Below the pieces are notes generated by a model, which made no database searches, was not told the DNA's origin, and was given only the letters and a program-made list of their open reading frames with translations. The position numbers and the translations under genes were made by a program. A DNA stretch of 53,439 nt. It comes from Bacillota bacterium (GTDB lineage: Bacteria > Bacillota > Clostridia > DSM-8532). Every line of letters starts with the position of its first letter. The first letter of the stretch is position 1. The stretch is from assembly GCA_022702935.2 (NCBI GenBank), contig JAKIML020000088.1, positions 1-53,439 on the forward strand, in the 5' to 3' direction. Positions 23,221-34,468 of the stretch are shown here, piece after piece.

Positions 23221-24021
23221 TTATGCCTTAACTTTCACATAGCTCTGCGATTTGATGAACTCGGTGGGTGAGGTATGGGTATATTTCTTAAAGACACTAC
23301 AAAAGTGCTTATATTCGCTGAAGCCTACCTTATAGGCAATCTCATAAATCCTAAGCTCCCCTTTGCCCATGAGCTCAATGGCTTTTTGAATGCGGTATTT
23401 ATTAAGGACATCCAAAAAGGTCTGGGCCGTTTCCTGCTTAAACTTTCGGCTTAAATAGCTGGTGCTGATGCCCATGCTCTCAGCAATGCCCTCAATGCTT
23501 ATCTTATTATAATACTCATCCCTGATGGCCACCAAGGCCTTTTGGACATAGGGATTGGTCTTCTCCCTGCCAATATAGAACTGGAGATCCACCAGAGCCA
23601 TTTCGCTTTTATCCTTGGACTTGACATAGATATCATGGTAAATCCGCTTCTGATCGATATAATCCACGGCCTTGCCCACAATGTCCAGGAGCTTTAATTC
23701 ATCAATGGGCTTGAGGATGTAGTCGAACACCTTCATGGAAATGGCCTGCTTGGCATACTCAAACTCGGCATAGCTGGTAAGAATGATGGTCTCAAAGCTG
23801 TGAATCTGGATGGCCTCCCGGACCATATCGATTCCGTTCATGGCGGGCATCTTGATATCGGTGATGACCAGGTCGGGCTTTAGGTCTTTGATCATCGCAA
23901 GGCCCTGGACCCCGTCCTTTGCCTCCCCCACAATGATGCAATCCACCGAAAACCAGTCAATGCCATGGACCAGCCCTTTTCTGATAATTTCCTCGTCCTC
24001 AACAATCAATACCTTTTTCAT
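23221..24021 (-). CDS. AraC-type response regulator (YesN family)
   Basis: The 266-residue regulator has a receiver domain (acidic residues near 8-10, Asp55 in VITDIKMPAMNG, Lys in DYILKPIDEL), a linker, and a C-terminal AraC HTH domain. The HTH signature is ISIEGIAESMGISTSYLSRK followed by YEIAYKVGFSEYKHFCSVFK. It is the partner of the adjacent sensor kinase and most likely activates the operon's transport genes. The start at 24021 (MKKVLIVEDE) has GAGGTGG just upstream. An ATG at 24031-24033 overlaps the kinase stop (ATGA) and is the alternative. Confidence 0.93.
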   Translation of the reverse strand: MKKVLIVEDEEIIRKGLVHGIDWFSVDCIIVGEAKDGVQGLAMIKDLKPDLVITDIKMPAMNGIDMVREAIQIHSFETIILTSYAEFEYAKQAISMKVFDYILKPIDELKLLDIVGKAVDYIDQKRIYHDIYVKSKDKSEMALVDLQFYIGREKTNPYVQKALVAIRDEYYNKISIEGIAESMGISTSYLSRKFKQETAQTFLDVLNKYRIQKAIELMGKGELRIYEIAYKVGFSEYKHFCSVFKKYTHTSPTEFIKSQSYVKVKA

Positions 24022-24029
24022 GAACCACC

Positions 24030-25730
24030 TCATTGACCCACGGGAATGGTTATCTTTACCGTTGTTCCTGCATTCTTCTCACTGATGATGTCCAACCCGT
24101 AATCCCTGCCATACATGAGCTGCATCCTTCGGCTAACATTGTACAGGCCCATGCTGGAGGATTGATTATACGCGCTTTTAAGCATGCGCTGTATTTCTTT
24201 GAGCTTTTCTTCGTCAATCCCCGCACCATCGTCATAGATGACGAGAACCAGGTGTTCATCAAAGAATCTGCCTTTGATTCGGATATAAAGGTGCTCCCTG
24301 CCTTCAAAGCCATGCTTGACCGCATTCTCAATAATGGGCTGGGTAAGGAGCTTGGGAACGATACAGTCCAGGGCCTCTTCCTCAATGGATATCTCATAGT
24401 CAAGCCTTTCCCCGAACCGGTACTTTAAAATCTCCAGATAGTTCTTGGTATGCTCCAGATCCTCTCCAAGGGGTACCGTCTTGACCGTGTTATTGATGCT
24501 GTACCTCAAAAGCGAAGAAAGGCTGATGATAATCCGATCCACATCGTTTGGCGCATACTTGACCATGCAGCGGATGGTTTCCAGAGTGTTAAAGAGGAAA
24601 TGGGGATTGAACTGGGACTCAAGCTGCTTGACCTCGGCCATCATGCTGCGCTGGGTCTCTTCCTTGTTCTTTTCAATGAGATCCTTAATATCCCACAGCA
24701 TCTGGTTAAAAGCCTGAGCAATGATTTGGAATTCGTCATGGGAGTCAATGGTCAGCTTGGTATCCAGATTCCCCTCCTGCACACTTTGGATGGCCCTGAC
24801 GATCTCGTCAATGGAGGTGGTCTTCCTGGCAGAAATACGCTTTGCCCACATGACCATGGCCAGTGCTATTACCACAAAGAGAACGGCCAGGAAGGCGCCT
24901 CCAAGAACGAAGGTTTTTCTGTAATAGTTCAGGGGAGTCATGGTATAAACCTGGAAGATCCCATCCAGCACCTGACCCCTGCAGAGAAAATAGGTCTGCT
25001 CTTCTACCTTAAGGACACCGGTGTCCTTTCTGAAGCTTCCCTTAAGCTTGGTAAAATTATCGGTATAATTGTTGTTTGTGGCCAGAGCCACATTGAAGAA
25101 TCTGTCGGTGATGATGGTATCGGTATTGCCCACATTGCTGAGCATGTTGAACACATCATTCTCCAACAGCTCGAAGACCAGATAGCCTTCGATATTATCC
25201 TGTATTTGAACGGCTTTGCACAGCGTAAAGATACTGTATTTATTCATGGAGGAATATACCCGATTGATGGAGACCGACACTATATCGGGATGGTTCCTCA
25301 TCCTTCCAAAGAGCCCCCAGTCATGCCCCATGTTCTCCATGATGTAATCGGGGGGCTTGAGGGTATTGCTCATGACCATCTCCCGGTCGGCATTGAAGAA
25401 GTAGAAATTACACCGAACCTCTTGGTGATTGATAAACTCATAGACCTGTTCATAGGCCTCCCGCCGCCTCTCCTCATGGAGAATGGCCTGGGTGATGGTG
25501 GGCGAAAGGGAATAGTCGACAATGGTCTGTGAATAGGCCTGGAGGGTGTTTTCCAACCGTCGGGTAATGGCCTTGTTGCTCATCACATTCTGACGTCTGA
25601 TGACCGTATCGGCCGCCACAAAGATGAGCAGGAAAGCAATAACGGTAAAGATAATAACGGGGGTCAGGGCATAACCGACAAAGACCTTATTAAGCTCACT
25701 GCGAAATGGCTTGAAACCTCTGTCTTTCAT
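24030..25730 (-). CDS. YesM-type sensor histidine kinase
   Basis: The 566-residue membrane kinase has TM1 near residues 18-40, an extracellular sensor domain of about 230 residues, TM2 near 272-296, a HAMP domain (about 297-350), a His_kinase domain with His377 in LESQFNPHFLFNTLE, and a HATPase_c domain with N box QPIIENAVKHGFEGR. This is the LytS/YesM class, usually sensing sugars or related extracellular ligands. The gene lies 34 bp after the permease and directly before its response regulator. What the sensor domain binds cannot be read from sequence. Confidence 0.93.
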   Translation of the reverse strand: MKDRGFKPFRSELNKVFVGYALTPVIIFTVIAFLLIFVAADTVIRRQNVMSNKAITRRLENTLQAYSQTIVDYSLSPTITQAILHEERRREAYEQVYEFINHQEVRCNFYFFNADREMVMSNTLKPPDYIMENMGHDWGLFGRMRNHPDIVSVSINRVYSSMNKYSIFTLCKAVQIQDNIEGYLVFELLENDVFNMLSNVGNTDTIITDRFFNVALATNNNYTDNFTKLKGSFRKDTGVLKVEEQTYFLCRGQVLDGIFQVYTMTPLNYYRKTFVLGGAFLAVLFVVIALAMVMWAKRISARKTTSIDEIVRAIQSVQEGNLDTKLTIDSHDEFQIIAQAFNQMLWDIKDLIEKNKEETQRSMMAEVKQLESQFNPHFLFNTLETIRCMVKYAPNDVDRIIISLSSLLRYSINNTVKTVPLGEDLEHTKNYLEILKYRFGERLDYEISIEEEALDCIVPKLLTQPIIENAVKHGFEGREHLYIRIKGRFFDEHLVLVIYDDGAGIDEEKLKEIQRMLKSAYNQSSSMGLYNVSRRMQLMYGRDYGLDIISEKNAGTTVKITIPVGQ

Positions 25731-25764
25731 ACCCCTACCCCCGTCTTATTCTATTATATACTAT

Positions 25765-27417
25765 CTATATACTAATTTCCTTCTTACCTGATATTTTAAA
25801 CGAAATTAGCAAGGAAGCAATGGTGGTCAGCGTCAGAATGGTGGACAGCGCTGCTGCCGTACCATAACTGGCCCGGATAACCTCGGTATAGATGGATACC
25901 GACATGGTCTTGGTATTGCCGGTATAGAGAATAACCGAGGCGCTGAGTTCGTTAATAATGGTAATCCAGCTTAAGATGGCCCCTGAGAACACACCGGGCA
26001 GCATCATTATGGCGGTGACTTTAAAGAAAGTCTTCAGGGGCGAGCAGCCCAGGCTGATGGAGGCCTCCTCCATGCTGGGGCTGATCTGATAGAGGATGGC
26101 GGCGCTGGATCTTAAGGTATAGGGCAGTCTTCTGACCACATAGGCCACCACAAGGATGCCAAAGGTACCGCTCAGCACCAGAGGCGGCTTGTTAAAGGCC
26201 AACAGCAGGGTAATACCTAAAACCGATCCCGGAATAATATAGGGGAACATGGTCATGGTATCAATAAGTCCGGTAAATACGTTCCTTCGGCGGATGGACA
26301 GATAGGCAATAAACATACCCAGCATCACAATGATGGCAATGGCGACTAAGCCATAGATATAGGTATTGCTGATGGCATTGCCCATGCGGCTGAAGATCTT
26401 GGTATAGCTTTCAAATGAAAAGCCCTTGGTGAACATGGCTCCCCTGGTTTTCAGGAAGGAGGTGTACATAACCGTCAACTGAGGAATGATGGCTAAAAAG
26501 ACAATAAAGTAGATAAAGAAGTGGGCTGCAACACTTTTGAATCCCTTAAGCTCCTTGGCTTTCATAGGACGCAGCGAGCTCATGGTAAAGGACTTTCTGT
26601 TGACGATGTATTTCTGGCCCACAAACAGCAGCGATGTGACAAAGACCATAATGGATGCCATGGCTGCCGCAAAGTTGGCCTGACCGCCTACTTCACTGAT
26701 AAACTCGGAATAGATCATAACCGGCATGACATTGAAGCCTTCCCCGATGAGCATGGGAGTACCGAAATCGGCCAGAGCATTCATGAATACCAGCAGAGCA
26801 CCGGCCAGAAGCGTAGGCAGAATCAAGGGCATGATAACGGTGAAGACCTTCTTTACACCGCTGCAGCCCAAGCTTTCGGCGGCTTCGCCCAGGGAGGCGT
26901 CAATCTTCTTAAGGGCTCCCGAAACATAGAGATAGATATAGGGGAACAGCTTAAGGGTCAGCACCAGCAGAATACCGCCAAAACCGTAGATGGTGGGAAG
27001 ATTGATGCCCAGGCCTGCAAAGAATTTGGTAAGAACGCCGCTTCTTCCGCTCAAGAGAACCCAGGAATAGGCTCCGATAAAGGGCGGAGACAGCATGGAG
27101 ATGATAATAAGTATTTCAATGAGTCCTTTTCCTTTGATCTTAAAGGCAGTCATCAGGTAGGCCAGGGGCACACCAATCAAGACCGACAGCAGGGTAACCA
27201 GCGAGGTCACCGAGAAGGAGTTAATCAGTGCCTGATAATAGTACTTTTTTTCAAAGAACTTGGTAAAGTTGCTTAAGGTGAAGGCTTCAGTCCGAGGGTC
27301 CTTGAAGCTGCTGATAAACAGGGAAAGCAGCGGATATATCAGGAACAGTGCAAAGATAGCCACAATCAGAATGGTGACGATGGACCAAAAATCAAATTTA
27401 AGCTTTTTCTTATTCAT
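25765..27417 (-). CDS. ABC transporter permease, fused two-domain (iron/AfuB type)
   Basis: The 550-residue permease has about 12 membrane segments made of two binding-protein-dependent transport domains in tandem. The first has an EAA-like loop at DASLGEAAESLGCSGVKKVF, the second at SPSMEEASISLGCSPLKTFF. Such duplicated permeases form the FbpB/AfuB/PotB-like group for ferric iron, phosphonates or sugar phosphates. The ATG at 27417 overlaps the end of the ATPase gene by 8 bp (ATGAATAA), implying tight coupling. Substrate is discussed under the operon finding. Confidence 0.92.
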   Translation of the reverse strand: MNKKKLKFDFWSIVTILIVAIFALFLIYPLLSLFISSFKDPRTEAFTLSNFTKFFEKKYYYQALINSFSVTSLVTLLSVLIGVPLAYLMTAFKIKGKGLIEILIIISMLSPPFIGAYSWVLLSGRSGVLTKFFAGLGINLPTIYGFGGILLVLTLKLFPYIYLYVSGALKKIDASLGEAAESLGCSGVKKVFTVIMPLILPTLLAGALLVFMNALADFGTPMLIGEGFNVMPVMIYSEFISEVGGQANFAAAMASIMVFVTSLLFVGQKYIVNRKSFTMSSLRPMKAKELKGFKSVAAHFFIYFIVFLAIIPQLTVMYTSFLKTRGAMFTKGFSFESYTKIFSRMGNAISNTYIYGLVAIAIIVMLGMFIAYLSIRRRNVFTGLIDTMTMFPYIIPGSVLGITLLLAFNKPPLVLSGTFGILVVAYVVRRLPYTLRSSAAILYQISPSMEEASISLGCSPLKTFFKVTAIMMLPGVFSGAILSWITIINELSASVILYTGNTKTMSVSIYTEVIRASYGTAAALSTILTLTTIASLLISFKISGKKEISI

Positions 27418-28528
27418 CAACCATCACACCCCTTATCAAGCTATGGCTGCCGTCCTCGTTGAAGATGTTGATGCGACGCATGCAGGGCTCAAGACAGACC
27501 TCTTCGCCTTCATTATAGAGCTTTTCTGTCAGGCCCAGATCCTGAGAAACCTCCAGATAGGTGCCGGGCACCACCATCAGATCCTCCATAAGGGTCAGCT
27601 CATAGTTTACATATCTTCCTAAGAAGGTTCTGCTTTTAATCTTTGCTCTGAGTCCCTTATCCGAAATGGTGAACTCCTCGGGTCTGACGGCGGCAATAAC
27701 ATCCATGTTATAGTTGACAAGATCGCTTAAGTTGTCAATGGCCATTCTCAAATCCCTGCCCAGTTCCAGGAAGGTCTGCTTGTTTTCAACGGCAATTCTG
27801 GCCTTGAGCAGATTGGAATGTCCGATGAAGGTGGCCACAAAGGTATTAACAGGACGGGTATAAATCTGTTCGGGCCGCCCCACCTGTTGGATGACACCAT
27901 CCTTCATGACGGCAATCCTGTCGGATACGGCCAGGGCTTCCTCCTGGTCATGGGTGACATAGACGGTGGTAATGCCCACCTTTTTCTGAATTTCACGGAT
28001 GGCACTCCGCATTTCAATTCTCAGCTTGGCATCCAGGTTGGAAAGGGGTTCGTCCATCAGCAGCACGTCGGGATGGATGACCACGGCACGGGCCAGAGCC
28101 ACACGCTGCTGCTGACCACCTGAGAGCCTTTCGGGCAACCTTTCCTGGTATTCCTCGATACGGGTCACCTTAAGGATCTCATCCACCTTCGTCTTAATCT
28201 CGGCTTTGGGTAGCTTTCTAAGCTTGAGTCCATATTCCACATTTTGCCGTACCGTCAGGTGAGGAAATATGGCATAGTTTTGGAAAACCATACCGATGTT
28301 TCTCTTGTGGGCGGGGATGTCATTAATCACCTTGTTATCAAAAGAGATTTCTCCCCCTTCTATGGTGTTGAAGCCTGCAATCATTCGAAGCAGGGTGGTT
28401 TTGCCGCACCCTGAGGGCCCGAGCAAAGTAAAGAATTCACCGTTTTTTACTTCAAGGGACAAATCCTTGAGAATAACGTTCTGGTCATAGATCTTGGTTA
28501 CCTTGTTGACAAAAATACTTACACTCAT
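27410..28528 (-). CDS. ABC transporter ATP-binding protein (FbpC/AfuC/PotA type)
   Basis: The 372-residue ATPase has Walker A GPSGCGKTT (37-45), Q-loop in FQNYAIFPHL, signature LSGGQQQRVALAR, Walker B VLLMDEPLSNLD and the H-loop His in YVTHDQEEA. The C-terminal third is a TOBE-type regulatory region. The family energises uptake of ferric ion, polyamines, phosphonates or sugar phosphates. It follows the binding-protein gene after a 103-bp gap with a hairpin and overlaps the permease gene. Confidence 0.95.
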   Translation of the reverse strand: MSVSIFVNKVTKIYDQNVILKDLSLEVKNGEFFTLLGPSGCGKTTLLRMIAGFNTIEGGEISFDNKVINDIPAHKRNIGMVFQNYAIFPHLTVRQNVEYGLKLRKLPKAEIKTKVDEILKVTRIEEYQERLPERLSGGQQQRVALARAVVIHPDVLLMDEPLSNLDAKLRIEMRSAIREIQKKVGITTVYVTHDQEEALAVSDRIAVMKDGVIQQVGRPEQIYTRPVNTFVATFIGHSNLLKARIAVENKQTFLELGRDLRMAIDNLSDLVNYNMDVIAAVRPEEFTISDKGLRAKIKSRTFLGRYVNYELTLMEDLMVVPGTYLEVSQDLGLTEKLYNEGEEVCLEPCMRRINIFNEDGSHSLIRGVMVDE

Positions 28529-28581
28529 GGTGATGCCTCCTTAAGGCTAAATAGCAGGTTTAGGCTGCCCTTCTAATAAAC

Positions 28582-28608
28582 CGCCCACAACGTATGCTGT
28601 TGCGGGCG
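28582..28608 (-). terminator. Intercistronic hairpin between binding-protein and ATPase genes
   Basis: In the minus-strand RNA, CGCCCGCAAC pairs with GTTGTGGGCG (10 bp, one G-U) around a 7-nt loop. It is followed by GTTTATTA, a weak U tract. It looks like a partial terminator or an mRNA-stabilising hairpin that would give more binding protein than transporter. Confidence 0.6.
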
Positions 28609-28631
28609 ATTTATTGCGGGCTTACATGGGT

Positions 28632-29702
28632 TTATTGAACGCTTGTGAAGATATCCTTGAACTTGTCAAGCCATTCTTGCTTCTTCTCCATGACAACATT
28701 CAGATCATCATAGATAAGGTTGATTTCGTTCATGGGCTTCAGACCTTCTGCCGGCGGCACATCCTTACGCACCGATCTTCTGTTGAGCTGGGAAGCGATA
28801 AGGCTTTGGGCATCCTTGCCGGTAACGAAGTCAACAAATTTCTTGGCATTGGCCATATTCTTTGCGCCCTTGATAATGGCAACACCGTCGGGCTTTGAGA
28901 TAACGCCTTCCTTCATATAAATCAGCTTAACAGGAGCGCCGTCTGCAACATATTTGGCACCGCCTTCCTCAAAGGTCAGGCCCACGGTGTACTCACCGTC
29001 AGCAACGCCCTTGTAGACGGCTGACGAACCGGAAAGCAGCTTACCATCCAGGTTCTTGCAGATAGCTTCAACATAGTCCCAGCCTTTTTCAGGATCACCG
29101 TTGCCCATAGCGTAGAGCATATTGACCAGGTGCTCAAAGGAGGACGAGGATTTGGAAGGATCGGCATGAGCGATCTTGCCTTTAAGCGCGGGATTCAAGA
29201 GATCCTCATAGCCCTCTATCTTGATATCACCAATCAGATTGGTGTTGACCATCAGGACGCTGGGAATATGGGTAAAGCGGGTCATACGTCCGTCAGTGTT
29301 CTTGCAGTCATCAAAGAAGGCATCCTCATTCACGGAAAGATACTGCTCAAACAAATCCAGCTTGGGCTTAAGGGTGGATTCGGAACCGCCCCACAGAACA
29401 TCGCCCAAAGGATTGTCCTTTTCGGCTTCAATACGCTTGAGGAGCTCACCGGTACCTGCTGCAACAACCTCAACGGTTATGCCAGTCTGAGCCTCAAACT
29501 CTGCTACAATGGGATCAATGAATTCCAGAGGATGGGGGCAATAGATAACCAGTTCTTTGGTGGCCGGTTCTTCGGATGGTCCCGGAGTACTGGTACCAGT
29601 ACTGGTATTGGTAGGCGTGGGCGTATTGGCGGGTGTCTGCCCACAGGCTGCCATGGAGAGAGTCATTACCAGAATCACGAAAAGGGCAAGAAACTTTTTC
29701 AT
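28632..29702 (-). CDS. Family 1 extracellular solute-binding lipoprotein (AfuA-like)
   Basis: The 356-residue binding protein has a lipoprotein signal with lipobox near MAACG, then a Thr/Pro/Ser-rich tether (about 20-50). The periplasmic-binding-like fold starts ELVIYCPHPLEFIDPIVAEF. Family-typical features include GDVLWGGSESTLKP and SSSSFEHLVNMLYAMGNGDP. The closest named relatives I recall are the AfuA/FbpA-like proteins, which include a hexose-phosphate binder. Iron-binding tyrosine pairs of FbpA are not obvious. The start at 29702 has GGAGG 8 nt upstream. It is the first gene of the operon. Confidence 0.9.
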   Translation of the reverse strand: MKKFLALFVILVMTLSMAACGQTPANTPTPTNTSTGTSTPGPSEEPATKELVIYCPHPLEFIDPIVAEFEAQTGITVEVVAAGTGELLKRIEAEKDNPLGDVLWGGSESTLKPKLDLFEQYLSVNEDAFFDDCKNTDGRMTRFTHIPSVLMVNTNLIGDIKIEGYEDLLNPALKGKIAHADPSKSSSSFEHLVNMLYAMGNGDPEKGWDYVEAICKNLDGKLLSGSSAVYKGVADGEYTVGLTFEEGGAKYVADGAPVKLIYMKEGVISKPDGVAIIKGAKNMANAKKFVDFVTGKDAQSLIASQLNRRSVRKDVPPAEGLKPMNEINLIYDDLNVVMEKKQEWLDKFKDIFTSVQ

Positions 29703-29852
29703 TGTCGAAACCTCCATTTACGATTTGGTTGGTGTGCTTTAAGAATAGCACCACCCCGGATTAAGTAAAATCCTATAAAAACGGACAATTATACGAAAAA
29801 ATGAACTGTCCCTCAGAATGGTATTATGCCCTGCAATGATGTTTTTTTTGCA

Positions 29853-29889
29853 TTAAAAAAGACATGGGAATTCGAACACCCATGTCTTT
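29853..29889 (-). terminator. Rho-independent terminator of the signalling cassette
   Basis: On the minus strand AAAGACATGGG pairs with CCCATGTCTTT and is followed by TTTTTT, directly after the EAL gene stop. The 29703-29906 gap otherwise holds the upstream region of the binding-protein gene; no firm promoter was recognised there. Confidence 0.92.
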
Positions 29890-29906
29890 GACAAAATGGC
29901 CACGTT

Positions 29907-31184
29907 TTACTTTAACGGTTTGATGTCAACCTCGCTGATAGGCGTGGGTTGAGGTCTTGCGAAGAAATAGCCCTGCATTTTATCCACGCCAATCTGAAGC
30001 AGGGTTTTGGCCTCCTCCAGGGTTTCCACGCCTTCGGCTATAAGCATGACATCGGCCGCTTCACAGAACTTCAGAATGGACTGGACGAAAGCTTTTTTAT
30101 AGGCGTTATTGGCAATATCCGAAATCAGCTCCTTATCCAACTTGACAATGTCGGGCTTAATCTTTATGAGCTCCAGGCCGCTGCAGCTTCCGGTACCGTA
30201 GTTATCAATGGCGATGAGAATTCCTTCCTCCCGCAAGGAGGCAATCTGCTCAATAAAGGTATCCACATCAATTTCATCCCGTTCAGTGAACTCCAGAACG
30301 ATTTCAGAGGGCTTAAAGCCCAGATCGTAAATGAGGCTTCGGATACGGGAATCCTCTTGTTTTAGCTCGTCAATGGACTTGGCCTCCATATTGAGGAAGA
30401 GCATTTTGGGCTCGGTTCGCATCTGGGCAAAGGTCCAGAGATGGTTGGAGGCCATCAGCTCATTGATTTCATTAATATATTTGGTGTTCTTGGCGCACTC
30501 AATGAGCTCCCAAATGTCGGAGAATATGGTGTTGGTAGTTCTGGACAGGGCTTCATAGCCGTAGATGGTGCCCAGCTTAACATTAATAATGGGCTGGAAT
30601 ACTGAGTAAAACTGGTTTTCGATATGGACCTCCCTGAGAAACTCCCTTTTCTCAACCAGCTTCACGTCCTTTACATACTCTTCCCAATCAAACCTGTTGA
30701 CGATATAGGATTTGTGCTTAATAGCCTGTTTAAGGGCAAATCTGGCCCGGTCCACCATCTCATAAATGTCCAGGGTCTTGTCAAAAAGCACGTACCCGGC
30801 ATAAAGCTTAAGCTTTATGACCAGATCCCCCTTCTGACGCACCGAGACCAGGCGCTTAAAAAAGTGGAATTCGGCAAAGGCTGAAGCCTCCTCCGCACAT
30901 TCAAAGCCATGGGCGAATATGATATATTCCCCGTCGCTGATTTGGAACACATTCTTGATATTCTTGTCCAAGGTGACCAGGTGCTGTGAAAACTCCTCAA
31001 TAATATGCTCCAAGTCCGCCCAGCCAATATCTTGCTTGAGCTTTTCATAATTACCGATACTGAGCGCCAGTAGAACACCCGCAGGCTGCTGCTCCCTGCA
31101 AAGACTTTCCTTGATCCTCAAACAGGCATCAAAGATTCGTTTGCTCATGGTGTATTTGTCTATGGTTTCTACAGTCGGATCCAT
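29907..31184 (-). CDS. Degenerate GGDEF plus EAL domain protein
   Basis: A 425-residue cytoplasmic protein. Residues about 35-165 resemble a GGDEF fold, but the active loop reads SDGEY, so no cyclase activity is expected. Residues 185-420 are an EAL c-di-GMP phosphodiesterase domain. Present: EAL (211-213), Asn265, Glu298, Lys348, Glu384 and Gln404. The metal-binding DDFGTG motif reads DNYGTG, with Asn328 in place of the second Asp. Activity may therefore be weak or absent and the protein could be a c-di-GMP sensor. The start at 31184 has AAGGAGG upstream. It is the last gene of the three-gene cassette. Confidence 0.9.
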   Translation of the reverse strand: MDPTVETIDKYTMSKRIFDACLRIKESLCREQQPAGVLLALSIGNYEKLKQDIGWADLEHIIEEFSQHLVTLDKNIKNVFQISDGEYIIFAHGFECAEEASAFAEFHFFKRLVSVRQKGDLVIKLKLYAGYVLFDKTLDIYEMVDRARFALKQAIKHKSYIVNRFDWEEYVKDVKLVEKREFLREVHIENQFYSVFQPIINVKLGTIYGYEALSRTTNTIFSDIWELIECAKNTKYINEINELMASNHLWTFAQMRTEPKMLFLNMEAKSIDELKQEDSRIRSLIYDLGFKPSEIVLEFTERDEIDVDTFIEQIASLREEGILIAIDNYGTGSCSGLELIKIKPDIVKLDKELISDIANNAYKKAFVQSILKFCEAADVMLIAEGVETLEEAKTLLQIGVDKMQGYFFARPQPTPISEVDIKPLK

Positions 31185-31221
31185 AATATCCTCCTTATAA
31201 TATAACACACATCATACTCGT

Positions 31222-31971
31222 TCATATTTCAATGAGCTTGACACTGCTCATGGAACCCGTCAATTTTTCCCGTATGATATCCGAGGCTGCCGCTAATTTC
31301 ACGCTTCCGTTGACTGCCTTGATGGAAGCAATCATCTTCTTAATTCCCTCAAGCAGCTCCTCCTCCAAGTCCTCTACCTTACCAAAATTGATGATAATAC
31401 TGAGAGGCTTGATAAACAGCAACCCCTGGACTGCATTGCTCAGGGCCGAGAAATTTTCTGCATGAAGGGTTTTACCAATATTAATGACCAGGGTTCCGCT
31501 TTTATTGTCAATGGAGAAGGGCGTTTTAATCTCCGTTTCCAGATCAAAAGCAATGGCCTCTTCTTCTTCGGTTGTGTCTCCATTCATCCATAGCTTTTTA
31601 GGCGGCTTATCATCCTTTAATACATTATCTATGACCTTCATGAGCTTGACTTCATCAATGGGCTTGAGCAAATAGTTTCGTGCTCCGCTATCCAAGGCGG
31701 TCAGCACCATATTCTTTTTTTCCAGGGCACTGATGACAATAACCCTTGCTCTGGGGAATTTGGACATTATCATTCGAAGCGCTGATACACCATCCATGAC
31801 GGGCATGGATATATCCATGGTGACTATATCAGGCTGCTTCTGAGTATACTCAATAATTGCCTGTTCCCCATTTGATGCCTCCCCTACTACATCATGTCCG
31901 GCATTAGTGAGCATGGTCTTAATCTTCATGCGCATGATGTAAGAATCATCTACTACAAGAATTTTGGCCAT
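31222..31971 (-). CDS. Response regulator with receiver and STAS-like domain
   Basis: The 249-residue protein has a CheY-like receiver (1-120): DD at 8-9, phospho-acceptor Asp53 in TMDISMPVMDG, Ser81 and Lys103. An acidic linker (about 125-150) follows. The C-terminal 90 residues look like a STAS/anti-anti-sigma fold: GTLVINIGKTLHAENFSALS, then LSIIINFGKVEDLEEELLEGI. The position of the regulatory Ser in SpoIIAA-type proteins (D-S-S-G) is replaced by acidic residues, so control would come from receiver phosphorylation. The STAS call is by pattern only. It lies 46 bp after the hybrid kinase gene. Confidence 0.82.
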   Translation of the reverse strand: MAKILVVDDSYIMRMKIKTMLTNAGHDVVGEASNGEQAIIEYTQKQPDIVTMDISMPVMDGVSALRMIMSKFPRARVIVISALEKKNMVLTALDSGARNYLLKPIDEVKLMKVIDNVLKDDKPPKKLWMNGDTTEEEEAIAFDLETEIKTPFSIDNKSGTLVINIGKTLHAENFSALSNAVQGLLFIKPLSIIINFGKVEDLEEELLEGIKKMIASIKAVNGSVKLAAASDIIREKLTGSMSSVKLIEI

Positions 31972-32017
31972 GTCTTGCCCGTACCTCCAAAGTGTAATTT
32001 AAGGCTTACTAGAATAA

Positions 32018-34468
32018 TTACCCTCTTTTTAGCAATCCGACACGCAAATTTCCGCAAAAATGCGACAAAGTACACGATATATTTTTTATACCGGGAATAC
32101 TGATGCTTCCATTCACGCTCCTGATGAAATAGGGTGTTTTAACAATCAGGAACTCGGAAATACCGGCAAGCTGTCCAAAACTATTGCCCAATATGACATT
32201 GGTTACCTCTGCCAGCGTATCATGAACGGCTTTCTCATCCTCCAGAGAACCGGCACCCTCCCCGTAGGTTTCAATGAAGGCCTGTGTCAGAACCTGGTCA
32301 AAGGACGCAAAGAATGTCCCTTCAAATACCCCCTCCAAATCAATGAAAACAGTATGCTCCTGAAACAGGATGGGTTCCTCCTGTACCCGCTCAAAGGACG
32401 ATATGCTTTGAACGGGTGAATCAAGAATATCCTTAAACAGCTTGGAGCTGGCACTGACCACAGCCTCCAGCAGCTTGTCCAGGGCAATGTCCTCAGTGGT
32501 GTCATAGGTCTCCTGGGGCAGAGTAAAATGGAAGGTGGTCCCCCGGTGGAGGGCCGTATGTATGTCCACATGTCCTTTAAGGCATTCCAATTCCTTACGG
32601 ACTGCAGGAAGCCCGATGCCCCGTCCTGCCCTTGAATCGGCTTCATTGAGGGTGGAGAAGCGATCATGGAAAATGAGATTATTGATCCCATCAGCCGTCA
32701 ACTGGCTGTCCGGACTGAGTATCCCCTTTTCAATGGCTTTGGCCTGAATCAGATGGGTATCCAGTCCACGGCCGTCATCGGATATTTCAATATGAAGGGA
32801 GCTGTTCTTGCGATACACCGCGCAGGTGATATGCCCGTATTCACTTTTGCCAAGGCGCAGGCGCTCTTCGGGGGACTCAATGCCGTGAACCACCGAGTTT
32901 CTGAACACATGGACCAGGGCCCTTAAAAAGCCTGAATTTCTCACAGGATCAATGAGCTCATCCTCGCCCAGAATATTAAACTTGACCAGCTTTCCGTATC
33001 GCTCTGATAAGGAGGCCAGATAGTCATGGTAGACCTTAAATATCTCCTTGGCTTTCTTACAGCCCAGGGCACGCACAGCGGGAATGACGGCAAGAAAATC
33101 ATGGGGGTTCAGTCTCTTGGCCAAATAGGTCTCGATCTCAACGAGAGCGCCGCGATCAATATTGATGGTTTTATCGGACCAAAGGAATTTATCGCCCAGC
33201 AGGGCCCGGATCTTGGCCAAATCCCGATCAAAGCCGGACCTGAGGTCAAGGGCACGCACAGCGTTAATCAGCCCCTCCCTGTCCAGACCGGGATGGCTGT
33301 CGGTGAGCTTAAAAAGCTTCTCCTCCGCATCATGGAGGGTTTTAACTGTTTCGCTCATATCAAATAAACTGAAGTTGCCCTTAAAGGTATGTATCTCCCA
33401 GTAAACGGTGTTGATGGCGAAGGTCATGGAATCGCTCTTTTGGATGATCTCCTCAAGCTCCTCATTGACAAAGTCCATAAACTCATGCACACAGGTGGAA
33501 AAATCCTGACTTGAGGAAATGACCTTCAGCGCCATTTTCAGGGCATCCTTTTCCTCGGTTCTCTGCTTTTCCATCTCCATGCGCTCGGTGATATCGGTGA
33601 GGATGGCCATCATCTTTCTGTCGGTTTTGAAGATGCTGTTCCGAATCAGCCGATATTCGATCATGATCTTCCTGCCCAGATGCTCGAAATAGTCGGGAAG
33701 CAGCGGCAGATACAGCTCCACCCCCTCCTCTGAATCTGCATCGAAGATCTTCTCAACCACATTGGTCATATAGCGGATCTGTTCCGCATCACTGCCATAA
33801 AGCAAACGGGCAAAGCTCTCTCCCGTTATGCTGCGGCCAAATATTCTGCGGCATTCCCGGCTATAGTCAATATGAACGATGAGATCCCGGCCGAAGGTCA
33901 AAAAGCCCTGCCCCGTATTGTCCAGGAGATTTCTGACCGAAGCGGTTCGCTCAGCCACCATGGTCTCCAGGGTAATGCTTTTCTCGCTCTCTTTGCGATA
34001 TTGGTTCTCCAGCTCTAAATACAGGGTCTTAATCTCAAGATTCCTGGCCTCCAGCTCCCTGACCTTCTCGTTGAGCTCCTCAATAAGCCGCTTCTTTTCC
34101 ATGGCGTTCTGGATGACGCTGATCAGGGCATCACTGTCCCAAGGCTTTTCCATATAATAAAAGATACCAATTTCGTTCATACTCTTGAGGGCATTATGCT
34201 TGTCTGCATATCCCGACAGGAGTATTCGAATGGTATCCGGAGAGATTTCCTTTATTTTTTTGAGGAATTCAATACCGGTCATTTGGGCCATGGAATAGTC
34301 CGAAATGACCAGATCTATCTTTAAAGCCTTGGCTTCTAACTGCGCCAATGCGTCCATAGGATTATTAAAGGCAATCACATTCTGCTTGAGCATCAATGTA
34401 ATAACCTTCTGCAGCGTATGCGTGATCATGGTGTCGTTATCAACAACCAGAATATTGTAGTTCTTCAA
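32018..34468 (-). CDS. Hybrid receiver-PAS-Hpt-HATPase-CheX-like signalling protein
   Basis: The 816-residue soluble protein has, in order: receiver (1-125, Asp57 in VISDYSMAQMTG, Lys108); coiled coil (125-175); PAS-like domain (178-295); coiled coil; an Hpt-like helix with His360 in YWEIHTFKGNF; a CheA-type HATPase with N box HVFRNSVVHG (520-529) and G box DDGRGLD; and a C-terminal CheX-like region (about 685-816) with the E-x-x-N motif AEVTNVILGN (Glu754, Asn757). No CheW-like P5 domain or membrane segment is seen. The TTG start has GGAGG 6 nt upstream. Kinase, phospho-acceptor and possible phosphatase thus sit in one chain. Confidence 0.85.
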   Translation of the reverse strand: MKNYNILVVDNDTMITHTLQKVITLMLKQNVIAFNNPMDALAQLEAKALKIDLVISDYSMAQMTGIEFLKKIKEISPDTIRILLSGYADKHNALKSMNEIGIFYYMEKPWDSDALISVIQNAMEKKRLIEELNEKVRELEARNLEIKTLYLELENQYRKESEKSITLETMVAERTASVRNLLDNTGQGFLTFGRDLIVHIDYSRECRRIFGRSITGESFARLLYGSDAEQIRYMTNVVEKIFDADSEEGVELYLPLLPDYFEHLGRKIMIEYRLIRNSIFKTDRKMMAILTDITERMEMEKQRTEEKDALKMALKVISSSQDFSTCVHEFMDFVNEELEEIIQKSDSMTFAINTVYWEIHTFKGNFSLFDMSETVKTLHDAEEKLFKLTDSHPGLDREGLINAVRALDLRSGFDRDLAKIRALLGDKFLWSDKTINIDRGALVEIETYLAKRLNPHDFLAVIPAVRALGCKKAKEIFKVYHDYLASLSERYGKLVKFNILGEDELIDPVRNSGFLRALVHVFRNSVVHGIESPEERLRLGKSEYGHITCAVYRKNSSLHIEISDDGRGLDTHLIQAKAIEKGILSPDSQLTADGINNLIFHDRFSTLNEADSRAGRGIGLPAVRKELECLKGHVDIHTALHRGTTFHFTLPQETYDTTEDIALDKLLEAVVSASSKLFKDILDSPVQSISSFERVQEEPILFQEHTVFIDLEGVFEGTFFASFDQVLTQAFIETYGEGAGSLEDEKAVHDTLAEVTNVILGNSFGQLAGISEFLIVKTPYFIRSVNGSISIPGIKNISCTLSHFCGNLRVGLLKRG

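Follow-up and report, generated by a model that had tools for sequence, protein, structure and literature searches.

The kinase described here is closest in its phosphotransfer parts to CheA of bacterial chemotaxis, with which it shares an Hpt histidine in an HxxKG motif, a P3/P4-type catalytic core and, presumably, a CheY-type target receiver. It differs from CheA in having CheX instead of a CheW-like P5 domain and in bringing its own sensor, which across its family may be a receiver, a Cache, a 7TMR-DISM or a hydrogenase-like region. The CheX/CheC phosphatases, including CheX of Thermotoga and Borrelia, have the same ExxN active-site motif in a domain that PF13690 recognizes above its cut-off, but they are separate proteins, whereas here the domain is fused to the kinase.

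For the second protein of the locus, the closest solved structures to its STAS-like domain belong to the STAS-domain-only antagonists SpoIIAA/RsbV. Unlike these, the domain is fused to a receiver, has lost the phospho-Ser with its DSxG loop, and has no RsbW/SpoIIAB gene beside it. Two-component input into a STAS protein is known from HptB-HsbR-HsbA(-HsbD) of Pseudomonas aeruginosa and CrsR-CrsA of Shewanella (PMC6482189). The HsbR/CrsR regulators have kinase and phosphatase activity and switch a separate STAS protein through a Ser, whereas here receiver and STAS-like domain share one protein without that Ser, and a Pfam scan of all three proteins detected neither a PP2C nor a Ser-kinase domain. 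SiaC, the STAS-like protein of SiaABCD in P. aeruginosa, acts directly as the activator of a c-di-GMP enzyme in that pathway (PMC8457831), which sets a precedent for STAS-type control of such enzymes (PMC8457831, PMC9239204). Control of SiaC, however, lies with a Ser/Thr-type kinase together with a PP2C phosphatase, and SiaD is a cyclase, while the neighbor here is an EAL protein. RsfSR of Mycobacterium was considered as a receiver-STAS system and rejected, because RsfR is a receiver-PP2C protein. Finally, the [FeFe]-hydrogenases of group C (HydS), for which the literature goes no further than the label "putative sensory" (PMC8163306), resemble two relatives of our kinase, which itself has a receiver in place of the hydrogenase. 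The open-access papers searched yielded no named system of this make-up, no paper on receiver-STAS regulators and nothing relevant on a kinase-fused CheX, which is no proof of novelty.

The three-gene locus and its kinase

The window, a stretch of 53,439 nucleotides, contains three genes in one direction on the minus strand within 29853-34468, separated by gaps of 46 and 37 bp and followed by a single strong terminator (Table 1). For this terminator, a hairpin at 29889-29858 with a U-run behind it, the folding energy is -15.8 kcal/mol (z -5.1), which none of 200 shuffles matched. Gene calls and hairpin folding thus bear out the initial annotation, which had described a co-directional trio with these gaps and a common terminator; the positions it gave for His360, Asp57 and Asp53 are the same as ours. 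The kinase gene starts at TTG (34468) with a GGAGG site. The long open reading frame of the EAL gene begins at GTG 31208, but the start is placed at ATG 31184, which has an AAGGAGG site and agrees with the start in a congener. A promoter scan returned no more sites than shuffled sequence, and no chemoreceptor or CheW gene lies beside the kinase in the window.

Table 1. Features of the kinase, receiver-STAS-like and EAL genes
Feature	Positions	Strand	Basis
Gene 1: 816-aa hybrid CheA-type kinase, Rec-coiled coil-PAS-like-Hpt-P3/P4 HATPase-CheX	32018..34468	(-)	Pfam, PDB, relatives
Kinase N-terminal receiver, residues 6-119; Asp57, Lys108	34112..34453	(-)	Pfam; PDB 2rjn; relatives
Kinase Hpt, residues 329-394; phospho-acceptor His360 (HTFKG)	33287..33484	(-)	Sub-threshold Pfam; relatives
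Kinase CheA-type P4 HATPase, residues 516-653; N box HVFRNSVVHGIE, DDGRG, GRGIGL	32510..32923	(-)	Pfam, PDB, alignment
Kinase C-terminal CheX, residues 706-792; ExxN = Glu754/Asn757	32093..32353	(-)	Pfam PF13690, relatives
Gene 2: response regulator of 249 aa with CheY-type receiver (Asp53) and STAS-like output domain	31222..31971	(-)	Pfam, PDB profile
STAS-like domain, residues 151-249; Glu204 at SpoIIAA phospho-Ser site	31225..31521	(-)	Profile, alignment
Gene 3: 425-aa degenerate GGDEF (SDGEY)-EAL protein	29907..31184	(-)	Pfam, congener match
Intrinsic terminator shared by the three genes: hairpin, U-run	29853..29889	(-)	Folding

The kinase had been read as a receiver-PAS-Hpt-HATPase-CheX protein. 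Its receiver (1e-18), HATPase (3e-14) and CheX (2e-7) pass the Pfam cut-offs, while the Hpt domain falls below (0.09) but finds its support in the wider family, where PF01627 matches 8 of 15 proteins (best 4e-7) and the HxFKG-type histidine is unchanged in all 21 kinases compared. The PAS-like region is assigned from topology alone, with no Pfam PAS match. The core can be aligned to CheA P3-P4 at about 28-32% identity (1e-26), with candidate P3 helices at residues 439-467 ahead of P4 in the predicted model. CheX occupies the position that the CheW-like P5 has in CheA, for which Pfam gave no match in the 816 residues; the ExxN motif is present in 15 kinases of the set of 21. The N-terminal receiver is closest to those of Rec-HD-GYP proteins, and could itself be a target of CheX or of the Hpt domain.

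Sensors within the kinase family include a receiver, Cache-HAMP, 7TMR-DISM, a Ser/Thr-kinase-AAA-GAF arrangement and a putative sensory [FeFe]-hydrogenase. In two genomes the same kinase has the hydrogenase-like sensor; in the relatives L104 and L105, regions of 4Fe-4S, H-domain and PAS-like type are joined to this kinase. What CheX probably does had been overlooked in the initial annotation. Four kinases that have no receiver of their own retain CheX (L027, L047, L050 and L051), and at L057 and L058, where the kinase lacks it, a separate CheX-like gene adjoins CheY and the kinase. Because of both arrangements, the fused CheX most likely acts as a phosphatase for the partner receiver.

The receiver-STAS-like protein

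The receiver of the second protein passes its Pfam cut-off with ease (1e-27), and the receivers of receiver-STAS proteins cluster with CheYs of L048 and L051 whose genes adjoin the same kinases. The STAS assignment is more weakly supported, scoring below the cut-off in Pfam (0.0013), though relatives lend it some support. A profile of 12 STAS-like sequences placed the SpoIIAA structures 1th8, 1tid and 1auz as the top three among 177,635 PDB sequences, with matches that span the full domain (E 0.013-0.06). PF01740 weakly matches 5 of the 12, and the modelled order of strands and helices is compatible with STAS topology. Foldseek and other searches with the model of the whole protein listed matches to receivers and none to STAS. 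When the STAS-like set was compared by hhalign with the STAS proteins of the same genome, the alignments were in register but weak (probability 1-11%).

No member has a phosphorylatable Ser at the SpoIIAA site, which is Glu204 here, and all 12 lack the DSxG loop that surrounds it. With the Ser missing throughout, we rejected a partner switch based purely on phospho-Ser. The proposal that the STAS domain switches a partner may hold, although not in its classical phospho-Ser form. The domain itself is kept, with invariant residues, in 12 genes across four families.

Conservation of the pair and of the EAL gene

Genome comparisons indicate that conservation extends to the kinase and receiver-STAS pair and not to the trio. 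Within Clostridia, the core of the kinase is met repeatedly, coupled to sensors that can be exchanged, and the pair recurs with different sensors in unrelated genera of distantly related bacteria. In a survey of 398 genomes of the phylum, the receiver-STAS gene directly adjoins a relative of the kinase in all four other genomes matched (gaps 22-292 bp). In a family of 22 genomes, five encode the receiver-STAS protein and eight the kinase, and all five lie within the eight (hypergeometric 0.002, uncorrected for kinship); there it is an orphan gene restricted to kinase-bearing genomes. Receiver-STAS genes of family f21 sit in a housekeeping neighborhood without an obvious partner gene. The congener carries both kinase and receiver-STAS genes at the ends of two contigs, where adjacency is inferred. 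Elsewhere, the partner of the kinase is a receiver-STAS protein or a plain CheY. A direct scan of genome contigs with the kinase matched only the congener contig, families otherwise being searched one by one. Plasmid searches (tblastn) gave partial, distant matches to the kinase and none to the STAS-like domain, and a viral sequence scan gave a single, plain CheY-like match. The supposition that the kinase is dedicated to the receiver-STAS protein gains support from the recurrent adjacency and from the restriction to kinase-bearing genomes.

The trio fared differently. The product of the third gene is a degenerate GGDEF/EAL protein, as had been claimed: its EAL domain passes the Pfam cut-off (4e-47), while GGDEF does not (PF00990, 0.003) and SDGEY at residues 83-87 replaces the GG(D/E)EF active site. 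The EAL ligands E211, N265, E298, D327, D345, K348, E384 and Q404 are retained. DDFGTG is changed to DNYGTG, so that the second Asp is Asn328, likewise in the congener; in PA3825, both Asp residues of this motif bind metal (PMC5301497). The gene is syntenic in the congener (76% identity) and was seen only in these two species of one genus. Because it is absent from every other kinase/receiver-STAS locus found, the EAL protein cannot be the ancestral target.

Proposed relay and competing readings

Our preferred reading, to which we assign a probability of roughly 0.6, is a two-component system built from chemotaxis-type modules, in which Asp53 gates the receiver-STAS protein and the EAL protein is the likeliest local target. 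Whereas the domains, the active-site residues and the conserved pairing were observed, we infer every phosphotransfer, the target of CheX and the STAS partner as follows. A signal passing through the kinase receiver, coiled coil and PAS-like region would control the CheA-type P4, which would phosphorylate His360 of the Hpt domain. The phosphoryl group would then move to Asp53 of the receiver-STAS protein, and Glu754/Asn757 of CheX would remove it, placing kinase and phosphatase in one protein. Phosphorylation of the receiver may expose or hide the STAS-like domain. As that domain offers no Ser for phosphorylation, the receiver would be its switch in place of a Ser kinase of the anti-sigma type. 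The GGDEF-EAL protein, whose gene lies 37 bp downstream, would be the likeliest STAS target in this lineage, with the relay plausibly altering c-di-GMP breakdown or read-out.

Alternatively, the pair could feed a sigma-factor switch in trans. The STAS-like domain, with an acidic residue mimicking or replacing phospho-Ser, would bind an RsbW/SpoIIAB-type anti-sigma factor and so control a stress or sporulation sigma factor, while the EAL gene would serve a separate c-di-GMP function on the same transcript. The initial annotation had reported no anti-sigma gene nearby, but the genome does encode two STAS/anti-sigma/sigma modules elsewhere (SpoIIAA-AB-SigF-like and RsbV-W-SigB-like). Together with the closeness of the STAS-like profile to SpoIIAA and the lack of conservation of the EAL gene alongside the pair, these modules speak for such a switch. 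Yet the universal loss of the DSxG loop argues against it, as does the lack of an anti-sigma gene adjoining any receiver-STAS locus found, and we consider it unlikely. The relay might instead end in the kinase's own receiver and the receiver-STAS protein together, Asp57 being a phosphate sink or input and the second protein a CheY-like regulator whose tail only dimerizes or localizes. Related kinases do use plain CheY partners without STAS, even at L048, where the Rec-kinase architecture is the same, but the retention of the domain with its invariant residues makes this improbable. That three signaling genes are neighbors by chance or loose association would fit the narrow range of the trio and the lack of the kinase in 12 other congeners, but it is very improbable given the common terminator and the syntenic EAL gene, and for the pair it is already disfavored by recurrent adjacency in unrelated genera.

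More tentatively, the Asp53-gated relay may exemplify a modular two-component family, in which a CheA-type kinase with its own CheX serves many sensors and Asp phosphorylation gates partner binding by the receiver-STAS protein. Such a family would drive the EAL protein directly here, and, in hydrogenase-bearing relatives, could provide the output that has been missing for H2 sensors of group C. If true, the little-described pair would be a compact means of joining an Asp-based phosphorelay to STAS-type switching that dispenses with the customary pairing of Ser kinase and PP2C, and would place a kinase and a phosphatase made from chemotaxis parts within one protein. For sensors that have no known target, putative H2-sensing hydrogenases included, it would also provide an output path that can be tested. 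In this lineage, where the gene for a c-di-GMP protein has been added to the pair, it would suggest how a phosphorelay might reach c-di-GMP.

The three-gene unit and its products

The three co-directional minus-strand genes described in the initial annotation are real, and the hairpin and U-run of their terminator fold far more stably than shuffled sequences (z -5.1). Upstream, separated from gene 1 by 93 bp, is a group of genes in the same direction that, from reading their open reading frames, we take to be gpsA, plsY, and der. A promoter scan of the unit yielded no promoter-like site exceeding shuffled expectation, and the trio may therefore be transcribed by read-through from gpsA. Directly past the terminator on the same strand (23221-29717), there is a LytS/YesN-type histidine kinase with an AraC-type regulator, a pair that adjoins a ferric-type ABC transporter of three genes.

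Receiver, HATPase, and CheX in the kinase, the receiver in the receiver-STAS protein (RR-STAS), and EAL in the third protein all scored above Pfam cut-offs, whereas Hpt, STAS, and GGDEF in the same three proteins, respectively, fell below theirs. CheA P3-P4 aligned to the kinase at 1e-26, and CheA P4 was the best match of its structural model. While CheA carries a CheW-like P5 domain, the kinase is without one and has CheX in that position, with the ExxN motif at Glu754 and Asn757. From model topology alone, the segment at ~185-292 may be PAS-like.

RR-STAS contains Asp8, Asp9, Asp53, Ser81, and Lys103. In the structural model, the strands and helices of its C-terminal domain follow one another as in STAS, and when a profile from 12 relatives was compared against the PDB, SpoIIAA chains ranked 1, 2, and 3 (E 0.013 to 0.063), which together make a STAS fold probable. 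Glu204 aligns with SpoIIAA Ser58, a position that is acidic in 8 of the 12 members, Asn in 2, and Tyr in 2 in alignments read by eye. In the third protein, all EAL ligands are present but the second Asp of DDFGTG, which is Asn here (Asn328) and in the congener alike. Because both Asp residues of this motif bind metal in PA3825 (PMC5301497), EAL activity may be reduced or lost. In place of GGDEF, this protein has SDGEY, which does not form a cyclase site.

Features of the three-gene unit and of kinase/RR-STAS loci L104 to L107 from other genomes of the phylum
Feature	Locus	Position	Strand	Detail
Gene 1 (kinase)	window	34468-32018	-	start TTG, GGAGG site ahead
Gene 2 (RR-STAS)	window	31971-31222	-	start ATG
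Gene 3 (EAL protein)	window	start 31184	-	start ATG, AAGGAGG site ahead
Terminator	window	29889-29853	-	hairpin + U-run
Kinase with hydrogenase-like sensor	L104	3990-7367		RR-STAS downstream
Kinase with hydrogenase-like sensor	L105	8375-11752		RR-STAS downstream
Kinase-to-RR-STAS gap	L104			25 bp
Kinase-to-RR-STAS gap	L105			22 bp
Kinase-to-RR-STAS gap	L106			292 bp with ORF start used
Kinase-to-RR-STAS gap	L107			29 bp with longer ORF start

Conservation of the kinase and its receiver partners

Among 13 congeners, the kinase was present only in G008, the assembly with JAOABT010000500.1 ("Clostridia bacterium isolate SKW185"), at 58% identity, and in the kinase tree the window protein grouped firmly with this one only. 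Also encoded in this genome are RR-STAS, at 71% identity, and the EAL protein, at 76%; their genes share a contig and keep the order seen in the window. Because the kinase and RR-STAS genes of G008 are at the ends of two different contigs, we infer their adjacency. A separate CheX gene, absent from the window, lies between gpsA and the kinase in this congener (L026:2100-2579), and its product has ExxS where ExxN is expected. A class survey of 291 genomes (threshold 1e-75) found no EAL relative beyond G008. In a Rec-HD-GYP-like protein of a congener (L029:6350-7163), encoded next to a sensor histidine kinase, the receiver and coiled coil share 41-44% identity with the N-terminus of the window kinase, a hint at where the kinase's input receiver might have originated.

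Counting the window's own, 9 of 391 class genomes contain the kinase core, fused to sensors that include Rec, 7TMR-DISM, Ser/Thr-kinase-AAA-GAF, and others without a named domain. One protein of 2,157 aa (L049:2247-8720) combines Ser/Thr kinase, AAA_16, GAF, PAS-like, Hpt, HATPase, and CheX. A plain CheY gene adjoins several kinases, downstream in L027, L048, and L051 and upstream in L057 and L058. The L048 kinase is Rec-PAS-Hpt-HATPase-CheX like the window protein, yet its partner is a 121-aa CheY, not RR-STAS. The kinases of L057 and L058 (the latter with a reading frame fragmented in the assembly examined) are without recognized CheX; beside each and its CheY is encoded a DUF4388-like and CheX-like protein (L057:10163-11104, L058:3676-4554), with CheX above the cut-off in L058 and below it in L057.

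A four-sequence STAS-like profile run on 398 genomes of the phylum matched the window and four other genomes, and in 4/4 of the latter RR-STAS is immediately downstream of a family kinase. Because the four represent two families, each listed as same phylum and contributing a pair of genomes, they count as two independent lines, not four. In another family of 22 genomes, RR-STAS is an orphan gene in 5, several near rho, tdk, and prfA, and the kinase occurs in 8, including all 5 (hypergeometric chance 0.002, kinship between genomes ignored). In a receiver tree, built from 25 short sequences and strongly supported at few branches, RR-STAS receivers were intermixed with the CheYs of L048 and L051; closely related partners may therefore have acquired or shed the STAS-like domain.

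A proposed relay and its inputs

We propose that the CheA-type domain would autophosphorylate His360 and then pass the phosphoryl group to Asp53 of RR-STAS, because the CheA-CheY mechanism is established and the kinase/RR-STAS pairing is conserved. CheX would serve as phosphatase of the partner receiver, since it is kept in receiver-less kinases and encoded separately in L057 and L058. We assign this relay a probability of about 0.75. Output would run via the STAS-like domain, for which gene position, synteny, and STAS-type control of c-di-GMP enzymes elsewhere make the EAL protein the nearest candidate target. Such control is exercised by SiaC on SiaD (PMC8457831), and a similar arrangement has been proposed for Campylobacterota (PMC9239204). 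We hold this target only tentatively; other RR-STAS loci are without this EAL gene, so the ancestral partner must have been another. The whole explanation, with its inferences as marked, strikes us as somewhat probable. The open-access literature searched gave no instance of a CheA-type kinase that carries a fused CheX and is paired with a receiver-STAS protein; the component parts are already known, and the combination is a variant within two-component signaling, not a new category.

The L104 and L105 kinases (1,125 aa, near-identical layout) point to the breadth of inputs. In L104, which the Pfam sensor scan covered, the N-terminus comprises Fer4, Fe_hyd_lg_C (H-domain, 3e-33), and a C-terminal Fe-S motif, and this [FeFe]-hydrogenase-like sensor also includes a PAS-like region; L105 was placed by its length and layout. 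CheR, CheD, and CheB genes lie directly upstream of the L104 kinase (L104:1064-3774), a neighborhood that congeneric L105 is without. The N-terminal domain layout of the L104 kinase is the one reported in putative sensory group C [FeFe]-hydrogenases, for which signal passage is open (PMC8163306). The adjacent RR-STAS is a candidate output of sensory hydrogenases. Since the L106 kinase instead carries dCache and HAMP, one kinase/RR-STAS output serves several inputs.
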